This document shows positions 4,357 to 12,783 of a stretch of 64,000 nucleotides of DNA, piece after piece (position 1 is the stretch's first letter; every line of letters begins with the position of its first letter). The notes beneath the pieces were generated by a model. It searched no databases. It was not told the DNA's origin and was given only the letters and a program-made list of their open reading frames with translations. This DNA comes from Myxococcus stipitatus (GTDB lineage Bacteria; Myxococcota; Myxococcia; Myxococcales; Myxococcaceae): positions 62,001 to 126,000 of the forward strand of contig NZ_JAKCFI010000007.1 of assembly GCF_021412625.1 (NCBI RefSeq), given 5' to 3'. The position numbers and the translations under genes were made by a program.

Positions 4357-5673
4357 TCAGGCGTTCGTGCCCTTCCCGCCCTGGGGCGCCGAGGCCGTGT
4401 CGGCGCGTCGCGCCCTCACCGTGGCGATGACGGCGGCGGGCTCGAGGGCCGTCTCCCACTGTTGCCCATTGGACATCTGCTTGAGCTTGCCCTGCCCGCT
4501 GGTGCGCTCCAGTTCGCCCAGCACGAGGGTGAAGTGGGCGCCGCTCTTGTCCGCGCGCTTCATCTGGCTCTTGAGGCTGCCCCCGCGCGTGTCGAAGTCG
4601 ACCCGGAGGCCCTGGTGACGCAGCCGTCCCGCCAGCGCGAAGGCGGCGTCATGGGAGCCGGGGTCCGCCGCCGCGATGAACAGGTCCGGCACCTGGGCGA
4701 AGACCTTCCCGCTCTCCTTCAGCAGGAGCACCAGCCGGTCCAGGCCACAGGCGAAGCCCACGGCGGGGGTGTCCGGACCGCCCAGGCTCTTCACCAGCTT
4801 GTCGTAGCGCCCGCCCGCGCTCACCGTGCTCGCGGTGCCCAGCGCCGGGTGCGAGGCGATGAACTCGAAGACGGTGCGCGTGTAGTAGTCCAGGCCGCGC
4901 ACCATGCGCGGGTTGACCACGAAGCGGATGCCCAGGGTGGTCAGCTTGCGCTGCACGTCGTCGAAGTGCGCCTTGCAGGGCTCGCAGAGGAAGTCGAGCA
5001 CGCTGGGGCCCTGGGCCGCCACCGCCTGGCACTTCGGGTTCTTGCAGTCGAGCACGCGCAGCGGATTCGTCTCCAGGCGACGATGACAGTCCTCGCACAG
5101 CTCCGCCTTGTGCGCCTGGAGGTACTCGACCAGCTTCGCGTGGTAGGTGGGGCGGCACGCGTCGTCGCCGAGCGAGTTCAGGTTGAGCGTGATGTCCTGG
5201 AGGCCCAGCGCCTCGAGGAAGCGCGCCACCATGTCCATCACCTCGACGTCCTGGGCGGCGTCCTTCGAGCCGTAGGCCTCCGCGCCGATCTGCGAGAACT
5301 GGCGGTAGCGGCCCGTCTGCATCCGCTCGTAGCGGAACATGGGCCCCATGTAGAACCAGCGCGTCAGCGGCTCCTGGGTGGCGACGGAGTGCTCGATGTA
5401 CGCGCGCGCCGCGGGCGCCGTCCCCTCCGGACGCATGGACAGGCTGCGGCCCGCCTTGTCCTCGAAGGTGTACATCTCCTTGCCGACGATGTCCGTCTCC
5501 TCGCCCACGCTGCGCACGAACAGCGCGGTGTCCTCCACCATGGGCGTGCGCAGCTCCCCGAAGCCATAGCGGCCGAACACCTCGCGCGCGAGCCCCTCGA
5601 CGTGCTGCCAGAGCTCGATCTCCCCGGGGAGGAGATCCCTCATGCCCTTGACGCTGACGATCTTCTGGCTCAC
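4357..5673 (-). CDS. hisS: Histidyl-tRNA synthetase
   Basis: This class II synthetase charges tRNA-His in the cytoplasm. From the GTG at 5673 it is 438 residues. All family landmarks are visible: MRDLLPGE at the N-terminus, motif 2 with FRYERMQTGRYRQFSQ, the histidine boxes RGLDYYTRTVFEF and SAGGRYDKLV, motif 3 PAVGFACGLDRL, and a C-terminal anticodon-binding domain (LFIAAADPG through HFTLVLGE). The insertion domain has the usual NPLRVLDCK sequence with two Cys pairs (CEDC, CKNPKC) that may bind zinc. The GTG start overlaps the psd stop as GTGA, so hisS is probably translated by ribosomes finishing psd. Longer in-frame extensions upstream lie within psd and are not real. Confidence 0.97.
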   Translation of the reverse strand: MSQKIVSVKGMRDLLPGEIELWQHVEGLAREVFGRYGFGELRTPMVEDTALFVRSVGEETDIVGKEMYTFEDKAGRSLSMRPEGTAPAARAYIEHSVATQEPLTRWFYMGPMFRYERMQTGRYRQFSQIGAEAYGSKDAAQDVEVMDMVARFLEALGLQDITLNLNSLGDDACRPTYHAKLVEYLQAHKAELCEDCHRRLETNPLRVLDCKNPKCQAVAAQGPSVLDFLCEPCKAHFDDVQRKLTTLGIRFVVNPRMVRGLDYYTRTVFEFIASHPALGTASTVSAGGRYDKLVKSLGGPDTPAVGFACGLDRLVLLLKESGKVFAQVPDLFIAAADPGSHDAAFALAGRLRHQGLRVDFDTRGGSLKSQMKRADKSGAHFTLVLGELERTSGQGKLKQMSNGQQWETALEPAAVIATVRARRADTASAPQGGKGTNA

Positions 5674-6512
5674 CGCACGACTCCGATCCGCTGGCCCAGC
5701 CGGAGCACGGCGTCCTCCTGGAGGCTGGCGTCCCACGTGACGCGCCCGGGCTCGAACAACAGGATGATGGTGGAGCCCATCTCGAAGCGGCCCAGCTCGC
5801 CGCCCTTCTCCACCTTGTAGCCGTCCTGGTACCGGTGCACCTTGCCGGGCTGGCCCATGTGCGTGGTGACGTCGTCGTACGACGCCTTGATGCGCGACAC
5901 GCACGTGGCGCCCACCTTCACCACCGCGCACTTGCCGGCCGCCGTGTCCAGGTACGTCACCAGCCGCTCGTTGACGCAGAACAGGGCCTGCTTGTTCTTC
6001 ACCGACGCGGGGTTCACCGGCCAGAACTCGCCGGGGATGTACGCGTAGCCCGTGATCGTCCCGCCCAGCGGGGCGTGGATGCGGTGGTAGTCGCGCGGCG
6101 ACAGGTACACCGTCGTCCAGGCGCCGCCGTGGAACGGCTTCGCCGCCTCCGCGTCACCCAGCAGCTCGTCCACCGTGTACTCGATGCCCTTGGCCTGCAG
6201 ACACCGGCCATTGTCCGAGTAGCCCACCTGGGACACCTTGCCATCCACCGGGGACACCACCGCCTTCTCGTCCGGGTCGATGGGGCGCAGGCCCGCCTTG
6301 AGGCCGCGCGTGAAGAACTGCGCGAACGTCGGGTAGAACTCGATGGGGTGCTCGGCCTCGGCCAGGTCCACGTTGTAGGCCTTGGCGAAGGCACGCATGG
6401 CCGCCTGGTGGAGGGGCGCGGGGATGGGGACGCGGGTGGCCATGCCCACCGCCGTCGACAGGGCGGACTTGGGCAACACGCGCATCAACTTCATGAAGGT
6501 CTGGTCGTTCAT
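5670..6512 (-). CDS. psd: Phosphatidylserine decarboxylase proenzyme
   Basis: The enzyme converts phosphatidylserine to phosphatidylethanolamine at the inner membrane and uses a pyruvoyl group made by self-cleavage. At 280 residues it is the usual length. Visible family features are FAQFFTRGLK, the VVSPVDGKV block, the LSPRDYHRIHAPLGG box with catalytic His, and the self-cleavage motif GST within RFEMGSTIILLFEPG near the C-terminus; Ser of GST becomes the pyruvoyl. The ATG at 6512 gives the usual N-terminus (MNDQTFMKLMRVLPKSALS). It starts ten bases after the upstream lipoprotein gene and overlaps hisS downstream. Confidence 0.96.
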   Translation of the reverse strand: MNDQTFMKLMRVLPKSALSTAVGMATRVPIPAPLHQAAMRAFAKAYNVDLAEAEHPIEFYPTFAQFFTRGLKAGLRPIDPDEKAVVSPVDGKVSQVGYSDNGRCLQAKGIEYTVDELLGDAEAAKPFHGGAWTTVYLSPRDYHRIHAPLGGTITGYAYIPGEFWPVNPASVKNKQALFCVNERLVTYLDTAAGKCAVVKVGATCVSRIKASYDDVTTHMGQPGKVHRYQDGYKVEKGGELGRFEMGSTIILLFEPGRVTWDASLQEDAVLRLGQRIGVVR

Positions 6513-6522
6513 GGGGCGATTC

Positions 6523-7245
6523 CTACTGGCGGCCGGCGTCCGGATCGGTCCCCGCATCGAGGGTCCGGGTCGTCGTGCGCACGGAGCTCTTCGGTAACAC
6601 CATCAGCACCCGCCCTTCTTCGATGAGCAGCACCGAATCGGCGTGGGTCGGGTACTCCAGCCGGCAGGCCGTGCGCGAGTTCATCTCCCAGGTCTCCCGC
6701 AGGCCGCGCCCCTCCACGTTGATGGGGGCGCCGCGCTGGAAGCAGCCCCGGAAGCCCGCCACCAGCTCGCTCGCCGGAGTGCCCACCTGGGGGCCGGCGA
6801 TGGAGCCGGCGTCGGAGGCACCCGCGTCCGCGGCCGCGACCTCGGGCTCCTCGGCCGGCGCGGACGGCGCCTCGAGGGGCGCCGAGCCGCCGCCCGCCGT
6901 GGGGGGGAGCTCACGGGCGCTGGCCACGGCCTCCTCGCGGGCCCGCACCTCGCCCTCCATCCGGGCGCGCTCCCGCTGGATGCGCTCGAGCAGCTCCCGG
7001 GCGGACGTCGCGTCCAGGCTGTCCTGCGGCACGCGCTGCAGCTGCGCCTCGATCTCCCCCATCTGCGGGTCGAGGTACGCGTCATCCAGCTTCTGCGCGT
7101 ACAGCGACCGGAACTGGCGGGACGCCTGCTCGTACTCGGGCGAGGGCGGAGGGGGCTCCCTGCGGCACGCGGAGAGTGCCAACACGAGGGAGCCGAGAAG
7201 GGCCGCGAAGGGCCGGAGGGACACTCGAAGGACCTGGGGGCTCAC
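6523..7245 (-). CDS. Lipoprotein with coiled-coil segment, unknown function
   Basis: This 240-residue protein has a signal peptide with lipobox LALSAC (Cys at about residue 27). Residues 35-110 are a charged, helical stretch rich in Glu/Arg (ARELLERIQRERARMEGEV) and probably form a coiled coil. A low-complexity Ala/Pro/Glu linker with DAGASDAG follows. The C-terminal domain (GFRGCFQRGAPINVEGRGL to VLMVLPKSSVRT) has two Cys residues about 30 positions apart that could form a disulfide. I do not recognise the family. It lies between a phosphoesterase gene (55-base gap) and psd (10-base gap), on the same strand. Confidence 0.82.
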   Translation of the reverse strand: MSPQVLRVSLRPFAALLGSLVLALSACRREPPPPSPEYEQASRQFRSLYAQKLDDAYLDPQMGEIEAQLQRVPQDSLDATSARELLERIQRERARMEGEVRAREEAVASARELPPTAGGGSAPLEAPSAPAEEPEVAAADAGASDAGSIAGPQVGTPASELVAGFRGCFQRGAPINVEGRGLRETWEMNSRTACRLEYPTHADSVLLIEEGRVLMVLPKSSVRTTTRTLDAGTDPDAGRQ

Positions 7246-9552: not shown

Positions 9553-11082
9553 TCAGGGGGTCGGCAGACCCGTCGCCGTGAGGATGGCCTTCAGGTCGTC
9601 GTCCGTGAAGAACAGACCGCCGCCCACGAAGAAGTCGCGGCCGGCGATGAGCCGCTGCGTGGAGACCTCGCGCTGCTGGGCGTTGAGGATGTCGTCCATG
9701 CCCGCCACCACGAAGAGGTGGTCGAACGCGGTCGCCTTCAAGGTGGCGCGCAGCCGCGGGTAGCGCAGCTCGTCCGCGGCGAAGTTGAAGGCGTCCATCT
9801 GCAGCGTCACCGCGTCGTCGAACAGGTGCAGGTCCGCGCCCACGCCGCCCGTGGACTCGATGAGGCCCACGCGCAGGGTCGTGAAGTACCAGCGCTTGGC
9901 GAACTGGGCGCTCAGCTTCAGGCTCGCCTTCGTCACCTTCTGCGTCTGGACGACCGGATCTCCCTCCGAGGGCGGGTTGGTCTGCACCGTCTGCGTGGTC
10001 ACCGTCCCGCGCGGATCATCCACCAGCTCCAGCAGGTAGTACTTGTCCGGCTTCGGGATGAGCTTCACGGAGAAGGTGTTCTTCGACAGCCCCTGGGCCG
10101 CCAGGTACGTGCTCTGGATGCCCACCTCCGTCTGGAGGTCGGTGAGCTTGGCGGCGAAGCGGGCCACGTCCTGCACCGTCTCGCGGACCTCGCGGCCCAC
10201 GCTCTCGTCGGACAGCAGCACGCCCGCGGCGCCCTCGCCGTCCTTCACCTTGCGGGTGATCTCCTCGAGGTTGCCCAGGGTGTGGTCCAGCTTGTTGAGC
10301 GTCTGCTTCAGGCTGGTCACGCTCTCCTTGAAGTCCCCCTCCCCGCTGCCGACGATGTTCTTGACGCTGGCGAGCACCTCGCGGACGTCGCGGGTGATGA
10401 ATTCGATGTTGTCGACGATGCGGCCGACGTCGGCCTGGTTGCTCTGGGTGATCGTCCGCACGTCCGAGGACACGCCCTCGAAGTTCGCCAGGATGACGTC
10501 CAGGCGGTCCGCGTTGCGGCGCACCGTGGCGTCCACGGAGTCCGACAGGCGGACCAGGTTCTCGACGATGCGTTGGAGGGAGCCGGCGCCGCGCTCGCCA
10601 CCGAGCACCTCGCGCAGCGCCCCCGTCACCTGCTGGATGTCGGAGGTGATCTGCGACAGGGACTCGAAGATGGCCTCCATGCCCTGGGTGTCGATGACGC
10701 GGCGGATCTGCCCGCCGTTCTCCAACCGGGGCGCGTTCTCCGTGCCCGGGTTCAGGTCCAGCAGGTAGTCGCCCAGCAGCGACTCGGAGCGCTTGGTGAG
10801 GACCGCGTCCTCGCGCAGGTCCACGTCGTTGCGGATCTTCAGCACCACCCGCGCCCGGGTGCCCTCGAGGACGATGTCGTCGATCTCCCCGACCCGGATG
10901 CCGGCGATCTGCACCCGGCCCCTCACGGCGAGGCCCGACGCGTCGCGGAAGTACGCCCACACGCGCGTGGCGTCGCGGTCGCTCAGGCCACCCTCGCGCG
11001 CGAACAGGACGAAGGTGACGAAAAAGGCCCCCGCGGCGATGACCAGCAGGCCAACACGGAAGGGCGTAACGAGCTTCTTCAC
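9553..11082 (-). CDS. mlaD: MlaD/MCE-domain protein, long form with stalk and beta-rich C-terminus
   Basis: The MCE-domain subunit of a phospholipid transporter at the inner membrane. At 509 residues it is about three times the length of enterobacterial MlaD. It has an N-terminal membrane anchor (residues 8-28, VGLLVIAAGAFFVTFVLF), an MCE domain (about 36-130, with GLAVRGRVQIAGIRVGEI and LLGDYLLDLNPG), and a long amphipathic helical region (about 135-330, heptad-like, many Asp/Val/Ile). A beta-strand-rich domain follows to the end (YYLLELVDDPRG, WYFTTLRVGLIE, LRYPRLRATLKA). No MlaA, B or C gene is nearby. The arrangement is like the MlaD of Veillonella, reported to bridge both membranes in one chain. 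It lies 100 bases downstream of mlaF. Confidence 0.9.
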   Translation of the reverse strand: MKKLVTPFRVGLLVIAAGAFFVTFVLFAREGGLSDRDATRVWAYFRDASGLAVRGRVQIAGIRVGEIDDIVLEGTRARVVLKIRNDVDLREDAVLTKRSESLLGDYLLDLNPGTENAPRLENGGQIRRVIDTQGMEAIFESLSQITSDIQQVTGALREVLGGERGAGSLQRIVENLVRLSDSVDATVRRNADRLDVILANFEGVSSDVRTITQSNQADVGRIVDNIEFITRDVREVLASVKNIVGSGEGDFKESVTSLKQTLNKLDHTLGNLEEITRKVKDGEGAAGVLLSDESVGREVRETVQDVARFAAKLTDLQTEVGIQSTYLAAQGLSKNTFSVKLIPKPDKYYLLELVDDPRGTVTTQTVQTNPPSEGDPVVQTQKVTKASLKLSAQFAKRWYFTTLRVGLIESTGGVGADLHLFDDAVTLQMDAFNFAADELRYPRLRATLKATAFDHLFVVAGMDDILNAQQREVSTQRLIAGRDFFVGGGLFFTDDDLKAILTATGLPTP

Positions 11083-11182
11083 CTGATGTGACTCCGAGGG
11101 CTACCGGCCGGGCGCGACTCTAGCGTTTTGCATCCGGAGTGCCACATTTTCCTGAGGACGCCCCTCCCCGGGGCCCGCCTCT

Positions 11183-11968
11183 TCAGTTCTTCCCGAACCA
11201 GGTCTCCAGGAACACCTTCACCGCGGGCTGCTGGGACTCGCGCAGCTGCTCGGGCGTCCCGTTCTCCACGATGACCCCCTTGGAGAGGAAGGCGATCTGA
11301 TCCGCCACGTTGAAGGCGGACGAGATGTCGTGGCTGATGACCACGCTGGTGACGCCCAGACCCTTTTGAGCCGCGAGGATCATCTCGTCCACGTAGTCGG
11401 TGGTGATGGGGTCCAGGCCCGTGGTCGGCTCGTCGTAGAGGACGATCTTCGGGTCGAGCACGACGGCGCGCGCCAGGCCCACGCGCTTGCGCATGCCGCC
11501 GGAGAGGTCCGAGGGGAACTTCGACTCCACCTCCCGCTTGAGGCCCATCAGGTCCAGCTTGGCGCGGACCTTCGCGTACAGCTCGTCCTCGGACAGCTTC
11601 GTGTGCTCGCGCAGGGGGAAGGCCACGTTCTCGAACACCGTCATGGAGTCGAAGAGCGCGGCGGCCTGGAACACCATGCCGAACTTGCCACGCACCCGCT
11701 GCAGGTCCTCCACCCCCAGCGGGACGATGTCCTCCCCGTCGATGATGACCTTGCCGCTGTCGGGCTTGAGCAGGCCGATCATGTGCTTCATCAGCACCGT
11801 CTTGCCGGAGCCGGAGCCCCCGAGGATGACGCAGGTGCTGCCCACCGGCACCTTCAGGTTGATGCCGGTGAGGACCTTGTTCTCCCCGAAGGTCTTCTGG
11901 AGCTCGACGATCTCGATCATCGGCCGCGAGGCCGCGTCGCCGTCGCGAGGAGGACCGGAGGCAGCCAT
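11183..11968 (-). CDS. mlaF: Mla-type ABC transporter ATPase
   Basis: The cytoplasmic ATPase of the lipid transporter. From ATG 11968 it is 261 residues. It shows Walker A GGSGSGKTVLMK, Q-loop FQAAALFDSMTVFENV, the signature LSGGMRKRVGLARA (the M-R-K-R form typical of MlaF), Walker B IVLYDEPTTGLDP and the switch His in VISHD. The ATG overlaps the mlaE stop. A second in-frame ATG 48 bases on (before IEIVELQKTFG) would give the more compact family N-terminus and is a real alternative. It pairs with MlaE upstream and MlaD downstream. Confidence 0.95.
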   Translation of the reverse strand: MAASGPPRDGDAASRPMIEIVELQKTFGENKVLTGINLKVPVGSTCVILGGSGSGKTVLMKHMIGLLKPDSGKVIIDGEDIVPLGVEDLQRVRGKFGMVFQAAALFDSMTVFENVAFPLREHTKLSEDELYAKVRAKLDLMGLKREVESKFPSDLSGGMRKRVGLARAVVLDPKIVLYDEPTTGLDPITTDYVDEMILAAQKGLGVTSVVISHDISSAFNVADQIAFLSKGVIVENGTPEQLRESQQPAVKVFLETWFGKN

Positions 11969-12783
11969 CAGTGCAGGACGAGCCCGACCAGGAAGTCGAG
12001 GATGAAGATGGACAGGGCGCTGGCCACCATCGCCTCCGTCGTCGCCTGACCGACGCCCTTCGCGCCGCCGGAGGCGTTGAAGCCCTTGTAGCAACAGATG
12101 AGGGCCACGGCGAGGCCGAACACCGCGCCCTTGATGACGCCCTCGTAGATGTCCGCGGGCTCCAGCCACTGCTGGGTGCGGGTGAGGAAGGTGCCCGGGG
12201 AGATGCCCAGGCCCGTCACCGCGACGAAGTAGGCGCCGGACATGCCCGCGGTGCTGAAGAGGATGGTGAGCATGGGCACCATCACCAATCCGGCCAGCAC
12301 CCGGGGCACGAGCAGGTACTGCACCGGGTTGACGGCCATGGTCTCCAGCGCGTCCACCTGCTCGGTGACGCGCATGGTGCCCAGCTCCGTGCACATGGCG
12401 GATCCGGCGCGCATGGTGACCATCAGCGCGGAGAACACGGCGGCCAGCTCGCGGGTGAGCGTCAGCGCCACGGTGGGTCCCACCAGGCTCTCCGCGTCGA
12501 ACAGGCGGAAGGCCTCCGACGTCTGGAGGGCGAACACCATGCCCGTGAACAGGCCGGTCAGCCCGACGATGAAGATGGAGCCCACGCCCACGAAGTCCAG
12601 CTGGGCGAACAGGTTCTGGAGCCGGTAGGGCCGGCGGACGCTCCAGCGCGCCACGTCCAGGCCGAGCGTGACGACGCCGCCAATCGTGCTGACGACGTCG
12701 ATGAGGCCCTTGCCGAACCCCGCTACCGCCTGGGTGAACATCCCCGGCTCGCGGGCCGGCTTGGTGGGGGTCTGCGTCGTCAT
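11968..12783 (-). CDS. mlaE: Mla-type ABC transporter permease
   Basis: This inner-membrane permease has 271 residues, the usual length, with about five hydrophobic segments. Recognisable MlaE features are FVGVGSIFIVGLTGLFTGMVFALQ, the central ELAAVFSALMVTMRAGSAMCTELGTM block with the conserved RxGSAxxAELGTM-like motif, EQVDALETMAVNP, and the C-terminal YKGFNASGGAKGVGQATTEAMV. It is the first gene of the mlaEFD set and faces a zinc-ribbon gene across a 201-bp divergent region that must hold its promoter. Confidence 0.95.
   Translation of the reverse strand: MTTQTPTKPAREPGMFTQAVAGFGKGLIDVVSTIGGVVTLGLDVARWSVRRPYRLQNLFAQLDFVGVGSIFIVGLTGLFTGMVFALQTSEAFRLFDAESLVGPTVALTLTRELAAVFSALMVTMRAGSAMCTELGTMRVTEQVDALETMAVNPVQYLLVPRVLAGLVMVPMLTILFSTAGMSGAYFVAVTGLGISPGTFLTRTQQWLEPADIYEGVIKGAVFGLAVALICCYKGFNASGGAKGVGQATTEAMVASALSIFILDFLVGLVLH

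Follow-up and report, generated by a model that had tools for sequence, protein, structure and literature searches.

The closest described counterpart of the locus considered here is the MlaEFD system of Veillonella parvula, reported by Grasekamp et al. 2023 (PMC10665443), in which the genes run in the order E-F-D in an operon without MlaA or MlaC, and MlaD consists of an anchor, an MCE domain, a long helical part and a ten-stranded C-terminal barrel. Mutants, suppression by tamB and fractionation support that design. According to the same paper, barrel-ended MlaD proteins are widespread in diderm Terrabacteria and also occur in some Proteobacteria and close phyla; its main text contains neither 'Myxococc' nor 'deltaproteobacter', and its supplement may list myxobacterial examples. 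Among the literature matches listed, there was no dedicated study of Mla or MCE proteins in Myxococcus, the Myxococcota or deltaproteobacteria. Here we describe an mlaE-mlaF-mlaD operon of Myxococcus stipitatus, located on the minus strand at positions 9553-12783 of a 64,000-nucleotide stretch of DNA (contig NZ_JAKCFI010000007.1, positions 62,001 to 126,000; hereafter the window) from a genome of 10.1 Mb. We estimate a probability of roughly 0.7 that it encodes a barrel-ended MlaEFD lipid ATP-binding cassette (ABC) transporter that bridges the two membranes without an MlaA/MlaC shuttle. The Myxococcus system is a well-supported further example of the design known from V. parvula, not a new idea; what is added here is its near-universality in one phylum, the conservation of linker length, and its coexistence with MlaC-family genes that probably serve resistance-nodulation-division (RND) exporters.

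Judged by the published description, the present operon shares with V. parvula its gene order, the lack of MlaA and MlaC genes within it, and the predicted architecture of MlaD. The linker between the MCE domain and the barrel has about 150 helical residues in V. parvula and about 185, predicted to be helical, here, and the periplasm measures 24.2 nm there (PMC10665443) against 327 Å in Myxococcus xanthus (PMC9603273). Also unlike V. parvula, tamB is not beside mlaEFD here, the one TolC-like gene seen on the contig lies about 20 kb away beside MlaC, and the genome additionally contains matches to LolA and to the MlaC family.

More distant systems share fewer features. The Escherichia coli Mla system (MlaFEDB-MlaC-MlaA) has MlaE, MlaF and an MCE domain in common with this locus, whereas the present genome has no MlaA and the operon has no room for MlaB or MlaC. 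E. coli MlaD has 183 residues against 509 here, a nearly threefold difference, and the present protein scores 69.6 bits with the E. coli short-MlaD equivalog TIGR04430 (cut-off 135). The E. coli proteins PqiB and LetB (YebT) are MCE proteins that span the periplasm. LetB has several MCE domains per chain. The same holds for PqiB (PMC10665443), compared with a single domain in MlaD here. Mycobacterium Mce1 (8fed/8fef) resembles the present protein in joining an MCE domain to a long helical needle, but its small barrel is built from six different MCE chains that each give one strand (PMC10665443), whereas one gene here is predicted to encode a complete barrel; MlaD scores 83.5 bits with the actinobacterial Mce model TIGR00996 (cut-off 140.5).

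The operon and its distribution in the phylum

The MlaE, MlaF and MCE genes claimed by a first-pass annotation were recovered as open reading frames at the coordinates given, which Pfam and NCBIfam assign together to an MlaE permease, an ABC ATPase closest to MlaF and an MlaD with one MCE stretch only. The top NCBIfam model for mlaF was MlaF PRK11831 (214 bits, under its cut-off of 441). For mlaF we selected an ATG start codon that overlaps the mlaE stop codon by a single base; given this overlap and a gap of about 100 bases between mlaF and mlaD, there is no space for an additional gene inside the operon. MlaD is 97% identical to the protein of Myxococcus dinghuensis, the closest named relative found.

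Of the 61 genomes nearest to this one, 59 have the C-terminal domain of MlaD, and they represent 26 of 28 genera. Using a profile of 23 sequences (alignment A2), the domain was detected in 156 of 174 phylum genomes, all those of at least 85% completeness covered by the search, representing 71 of 82 genera. The observation is confirmed as real, and these counts show that it is not a product of chance. Six of the 18 genomes without the domain are small (0.3-1.8 Mb) and belong to one family. Among 20 loci sampled at family and order level, mlaD was detected at every one, mlaF at 19 and mlaE at 17, with one locus (L048) cut by a contig end. A record titled Comamonas sp. KCTC 72670 (BNCN01000013.1) contains a Myxococcus-like locus with the same neighbours and an MlaD that is 83% identical; this record is probably mislabelled. 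Viral contigs scanned for relatives gave no lead.

Architecture of MlaD and its C-terminal domain

In a full-length AlphaFold2 model of MlaD, generated from 23 input sequences, an N-terminal helix is followed by the MCE domain (predicted local distance difference test, pLDDT, about 75), by helices across residues 132-313 (pLDDT about 28) and by strands across residues 317-493. The secondary structure agrees with the earlier description of a 509-residue protein composed of anchor, MCE domain, helix and beta domain, the helical part being of very low confidence. The modelled MCE domain superposes on the MCE core of E. coli MlaD (5uw8) at 1.6 Å over 102 columns, and the top Foldseek matches of the full model were the Mce1 structures 8fed and 8fef. 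A solved 312-residue 'Mce/MlaD domain-containing protein' (PDB 13hr chain I) matches MlaD residues 11-281 (E 3.5e-9) and is possibly a long-linker relative.

When residues 315-509 were modelled alone, the best of five models (pLDDT 68.5, predicted template modelling score 0.59) contained ten main strands of at least eight residues, two short strands forming a hairpin and a short C-terminal helix, consistent with the C-terminal barrel that the first-pass annotation had proposed to look for. Foldseek placed OmpG (E 3.1e-4) and a designed ten-stranded transmembrane barrel (E 4.9e-4) on top; just 3 of 1,097 matches reached E <= 0.001, and the eight best rows were all membrane barrels. With VIA-align, the designed ten-stranded transmembrane barrel again ranked first (Z 13.0, root-mean-square deviation 2.7 Å, 129 residues), followed by OpcA (Z 12.8) and Pla (Z 11.2), and membrane barrels made up 35 of the 50 matches listed. 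The domain does not correspond to a known Pfam family, as the best match among the 23 members of alignment A2 was to an unrelated one (E 0.048), and a profile search against solved structures returned nothing meaningful (best E 0.88).

The strands of the domain alternate in hydrophobicity: over nine of them the mean difference was 3.30, compared with 1.49 ± 0.36 for shuffled positions, and none of 20,000 shuffles reached this value. The strand at residues 347-356 showed no such alternation. Strand alternation by itself cannot separate the inside of a barrel from its outside. Across 22 rows conservation was higher on the polar face than on the hydrophobic one (entropy 1.18 versus 1.47, p = 0.09); R404, G406, G413, G415, R443 and G461 are invariant on the polar face, and the hydrophobic face is mostly variable. 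The MCE domain has the opposite pattern, with a conserved hydrophobic face (entropy 1.12 versus 1.80, p = 0.012, 21 sequences). The models and conservation lean towards a barrel that sits in a membrane with its polar residues facing inwards, which we consider the likely assignment.

Linker length was derived from the spacing of two conserved aspartates, one in the SLLGD motif of the MCE domain and one in the PDK motif of the barrel, in a set of 41 sequences made up of the window MlaD and 40 others chosen from domain-bearing genomes. The anchor-to-anchor distance was 241 residues in 14 of the 41. The median linker was 185 residues, 28 of the 41 fell within 180-190, and the range was 160 to 234. 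A strictly invariant linker was rejected: 17 of 21 lay within 182-187 by the alignment-bounded count, and 23 of 41 by the anchor-based one. Among 20 nearer sequences, linker identity to the window MlaD averaged 42%, with a minimum of 29%. The hydrophobic moment was 1.37 at 100 degrees and 0.71 at 160, a helix-like value computed without a shuffle control. As a straight helix at 1.5 Å per residue, 185 residues would extend 278 Å, an upper bound because the helix may be broken. Together with the MCE ring, such a linker would come close to, and is compatible with, the M. xanthus periplasm of 327 ± 28.4 Å (PMC9603273). In V. parvula, a MlaD with about 150 helical residues has a modelled length of 23.5 nm in a periplasm of 24.2 nm (PMC10665443).

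Table 1. Coordinates of the operon, the parts of MlaD and a neighbouring gene (positions in the window)
Feature	Position	Strand	Evidence
mlaE, permease, 271 residues, first operon gene	11968-12783	-	PF02405 E 2.6e-78; TIGR00056 230.8 bits (cut-off 212.2)
mlaF, ABC ATPase, 261 residues	11183-11968	-	PF00005 E 1.8e-33; NCBIfam
mlaD, long MCE protein, 509 residues, GTG start	9553-11082	-	PF02470 E 2.8e-14, residues 39-113
MlaD residues 8-29, inner-membrane anchor helix	10996-11061	-	hydrophobic stretch read directly; model helix, pLDDT about 35
MlaD residues 39-113, MCE domain	10744-10968	-	Pfam; model compared with 5uw8
MlaD residues 132-316, predicted helical linker, 185 residues	10135-10689	-	model helices; periodicity; conserved length
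MlaD residues 317-493, predicted ten-stranded barrel	9604-10134	-	domain model; Foldseek and VIA-align; hydrophobic alternation
MlaD residues 494-503, short C-terminal helix, conserved FTDDDLK region	9574-9603	-	models; alignments A1 and A2
Phosphatidylserine decarboxylase gene	5670-6557	-	PF02666 E 1.8e-63; 3 kb downstream of mlaD

MlaC-family genes, other Mla partners and genomic neighbours

The absence of MlaA that had been proposed for this locus extends to the whole phylum sample: PF04333 matched nothing in this genome at E <= 1 and nothing in the 174 phylum genomes at E <= 0.001, and the E. coli and Caulobacter controls were positive. The proposed absence of MlaB and MlaC holds for the operon, but not for the genome. 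MlaB-type STAS_2 domains occur at five or more places (scoring covered 150 of 253 first-look candidates); an MlaB gene near the operon was rejected, as no STAS_2 match among the scored candidates lay nearer than about 430 kb on the operon's contig. The genome likewise encodes two MlaC-family proteins (PF05494), which look more HpnM-like. It also contains two LolA matches (the LolA profile matches in two archaea as well) and two matches to the TamB family, both on contigs other than that of the operon.

Both MlaC genes lie less than 5 kb from MMPL/RND genes that are HpnN-like. Both MlaC proteins score highest to HpnM (77 and 35 bits, under the cut-off of 160); of the nearby RND proteins, one is closest to HpnN (272 bits) and the other about equally to the sterol transporter BstA (182 bits) and HpnN (181 bits), all under their cut-offs. 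By sequence score neither MlaC protein is a curated HpnM, and both fit an HpnM-type arrangement better than Mla. We provisionally rejected either gene as the missing shuttle, given its position near RND genes and its best score to HpnM, and the MlaC-family genes here probably serve RND exporters.

The MlaC family was found in 136 of the 174 phylum genomes. Barrel and MlaC occurred together in 127 genomes, the barrel only in 29, MlaC only in 9 and neither in 9, so that a barrel-ended MlaD is kept in 29 of the 38 genomes without MlaC, including all eight sampled genomes of one genus (g21). We count these genomes in favour of a shuttle-free system. Neighbours of MlaC were also sought at 20 loci from other genomes among these 136, four of the stretches being cut by contig ends: an RND relative was found at 7, a TolC-like gene at 13, a serine-palmitoyltransferase-like gene at 4 (L071, L073, L076, L081) and MlaE at 2 (L075, L080). 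This search used BLAST with the proteins of the present genome only, from which distant RND proteins may escape. Proximity of MlaC to RND genes is not a rule of the phylum, and elsewhere MlaC may serve an MCE transporter. At L075 and L080, both from family f16, MlaE-like, TolC-like and MlaC genes lie within 7 kb, with an additional MCE match at L080; these loci may encode an MCE transporter that uses MlaC and TolC.

Within the present genome, one MlaC-family gene belongs to a cluster outside the window (L032, C7:42001-62000) together with serine-palmitoyltransferase-like, GNAT, NAD-epimerase, HpnN-like RND and TolC-like genes. The serine-palmitoyltransferase-like protein scores 515.6 bits with NF047600 (cut-off 640). 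We take this gene set to resemble published ceramide genes, and the cluster is a candidate locus for sphingolipid synthesis and export. The part of a ceramide study available to us (PMC11324152) mentions neither Myxococcus nor MlaC, and our literature search found no paper joining MlaC, HpnN and ceramide. At L033:9615-15438, the second MlaC-family gene precedes one for a PF10136 'site-specific recombinase' protein (E 9.8e-199) and then a gene of the RND/MMPL type. In several genera of family f1, read by eye, the stronger MlaC match lies about 19-38 kb from the barrel-ended MlaD on the same contig, which probably reflects general synteny.

Genes for PfkB, PilZ, metallophosphoesterase and phosphatidylserine decarboxylase follow mlaEFD and are kept in Myxococcus relatives. 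They were rejected as parts of the system, as E, F and D alone recur in more distant loci. Two further MCE loci are present in the genome (L034 and L035): C3 has mlaE, mlaF and an MCE protein, and C5 has an ABC gene, two MlaE-like genes in a row and a 336-residue MCE protein. Neither locus is matched by the barrel profile, and the window MlaD is the only copy that the barrel searches found in the genome.

Proposed mechanism and alternatives

The likeness to Veillonella MlaD claimed at the outset is borne out by the ten-stranded barrel model, the missing MlaA and a linker length compatible with the periplasm. The interpretation of mlaEFD as a shuttle-free bridge further draws on the MlaE, MlaF and MCE family assignments, the matches to membrane barrels, the strand alternation, the conservation across the phylum and the V. 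parvula precedent. In the proposed mechanism, two MlaF ATPases and two MlaE permeases would sit beneath an MlaD hexamer in the inner membrane, whose six helical segments of about 185 residues would enclose a tunnel with a hydrophobic lining that crosses the periplasm. At its far end this structure would be held by the ten-stranded C-terminal barrels, embedded in the outer membrane. ATP hydrolysis would then drive glycerophospholipid along the tunnel, with outer to inner membrane as the most likely direction and with neither MlaA nor MlaC acting as a shuttle. Stoichiometry, hexamer, tunnel, outer-membrane insertion, substrate and direction are each inferred.

Several observations weigh against this interpretation. 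Confidence in the full-length model is low (mean pLDDT 46, and about 28 in the linker), and only one of the five isolated-domain models is fair (pLDDT 68.5, 57.2, 41.4, 39.4 and 36.4). Thirteen of the 41 linkers fall outside 180-190 residues (160 to 234), and two of the 20 relatives (L050, L057) have no mlaE beside mlaF though the sequence continues. Phospholipid transit along the bridge is a prediction of the model. Conservation of the polar face, expected of a membrane barrel, has p = 0.09. Soluble ten-stranded barrels come close behind in VIA-align (Rv0813, Z 11.0; nitrobindin, Z 10.9), the first 20 rows comprising 14 soluble barrels (8 of them nitrobindin entries) and 6 membrane barrels, and the genome encodes two MlaC-family proteins. 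The last points would suit a soluble, lipid-binding, nitrobindin-like barrel that tips a periplasmic needle, with the path completed by an MlaC-family shuttle (one such gene lies some 22 kb from mlaEFD) or by some other partner in the outer membrane. We regard this as quite improbable: membrane barrels fill the three top rows of VIA-align and the best eight of Foldseek, the invariant residues are found on the polar face, opposite to the pattern of the soluble MCE domain in this type of protein, 29 genomes have the barrel-ended MlaD without MlaC, and both MlaC genes of the present genome are close to RND genes.

Even with a bridge anchored in the outer membrane, the final step may differ from the proposal above. 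On its own the barrel probably lacks the width for lipid to pass, as stated for V. parvula (PMC10665443), and may act as an anchor only, lipid entering or leaving the tunnel sideways near the outer membrane or via another protein. We see an even chance of this refinement, which overlaps with the bridge model and agrees with it save for the last step: ten strands make a narrow barrel, a six-barrel ring was judged unlikely by prediction in V. parvula (PMC10665443), and the conserved polar strand face would suit a filled lumen. Transport could also run outwards, feeding phospholipid from the inner to the outer membrane. The direction of Mla transport is disputed, with the titles of two papers on Acinetobacter taking opposite sides (PMC6365058, PMC7500953), and the phosphatidylserine decarboxylase gene stays near mlaD in Myxococcus relatives wherever the locus extends that far. 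However, mutant and tamB suppressor data in V. parvula favour retrograde transport (PMC10665443), and the two TamB-family proteins of the genome could provide the outward flow; we consider outward transport unlikely.

More speculatively, Mla parts in the Myxococcota may be split over two independent lipid routes. One would be the barrel-ended MlaEFD bridge, with a linker whose length is matched to periplasm width; in the other, shuttles of the MlaC fold would have passed to HpnN-like RND exporters, one of them within a cluster resembling those for ceramide synthesis. The bridge would then do without a shuttle though the cell owns two. This broader scheme is possible, although we hold it to be doubtful.

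For the family, a PF05494 match should not be taken as proof of a functioning Mla shuttle. The survey shows barrel-ended MlaD to be nearly universal among the searched genomes of a phylum that includes the tractable model M. xanthus, and the conserved linker length makes the idea of a bridge open to a simple physical test. Having MlaC-family, LolA and TamB matches alongside the putative bridge, the bacterium is suited to a direct genetic test of whether the shuttle is dispensable.

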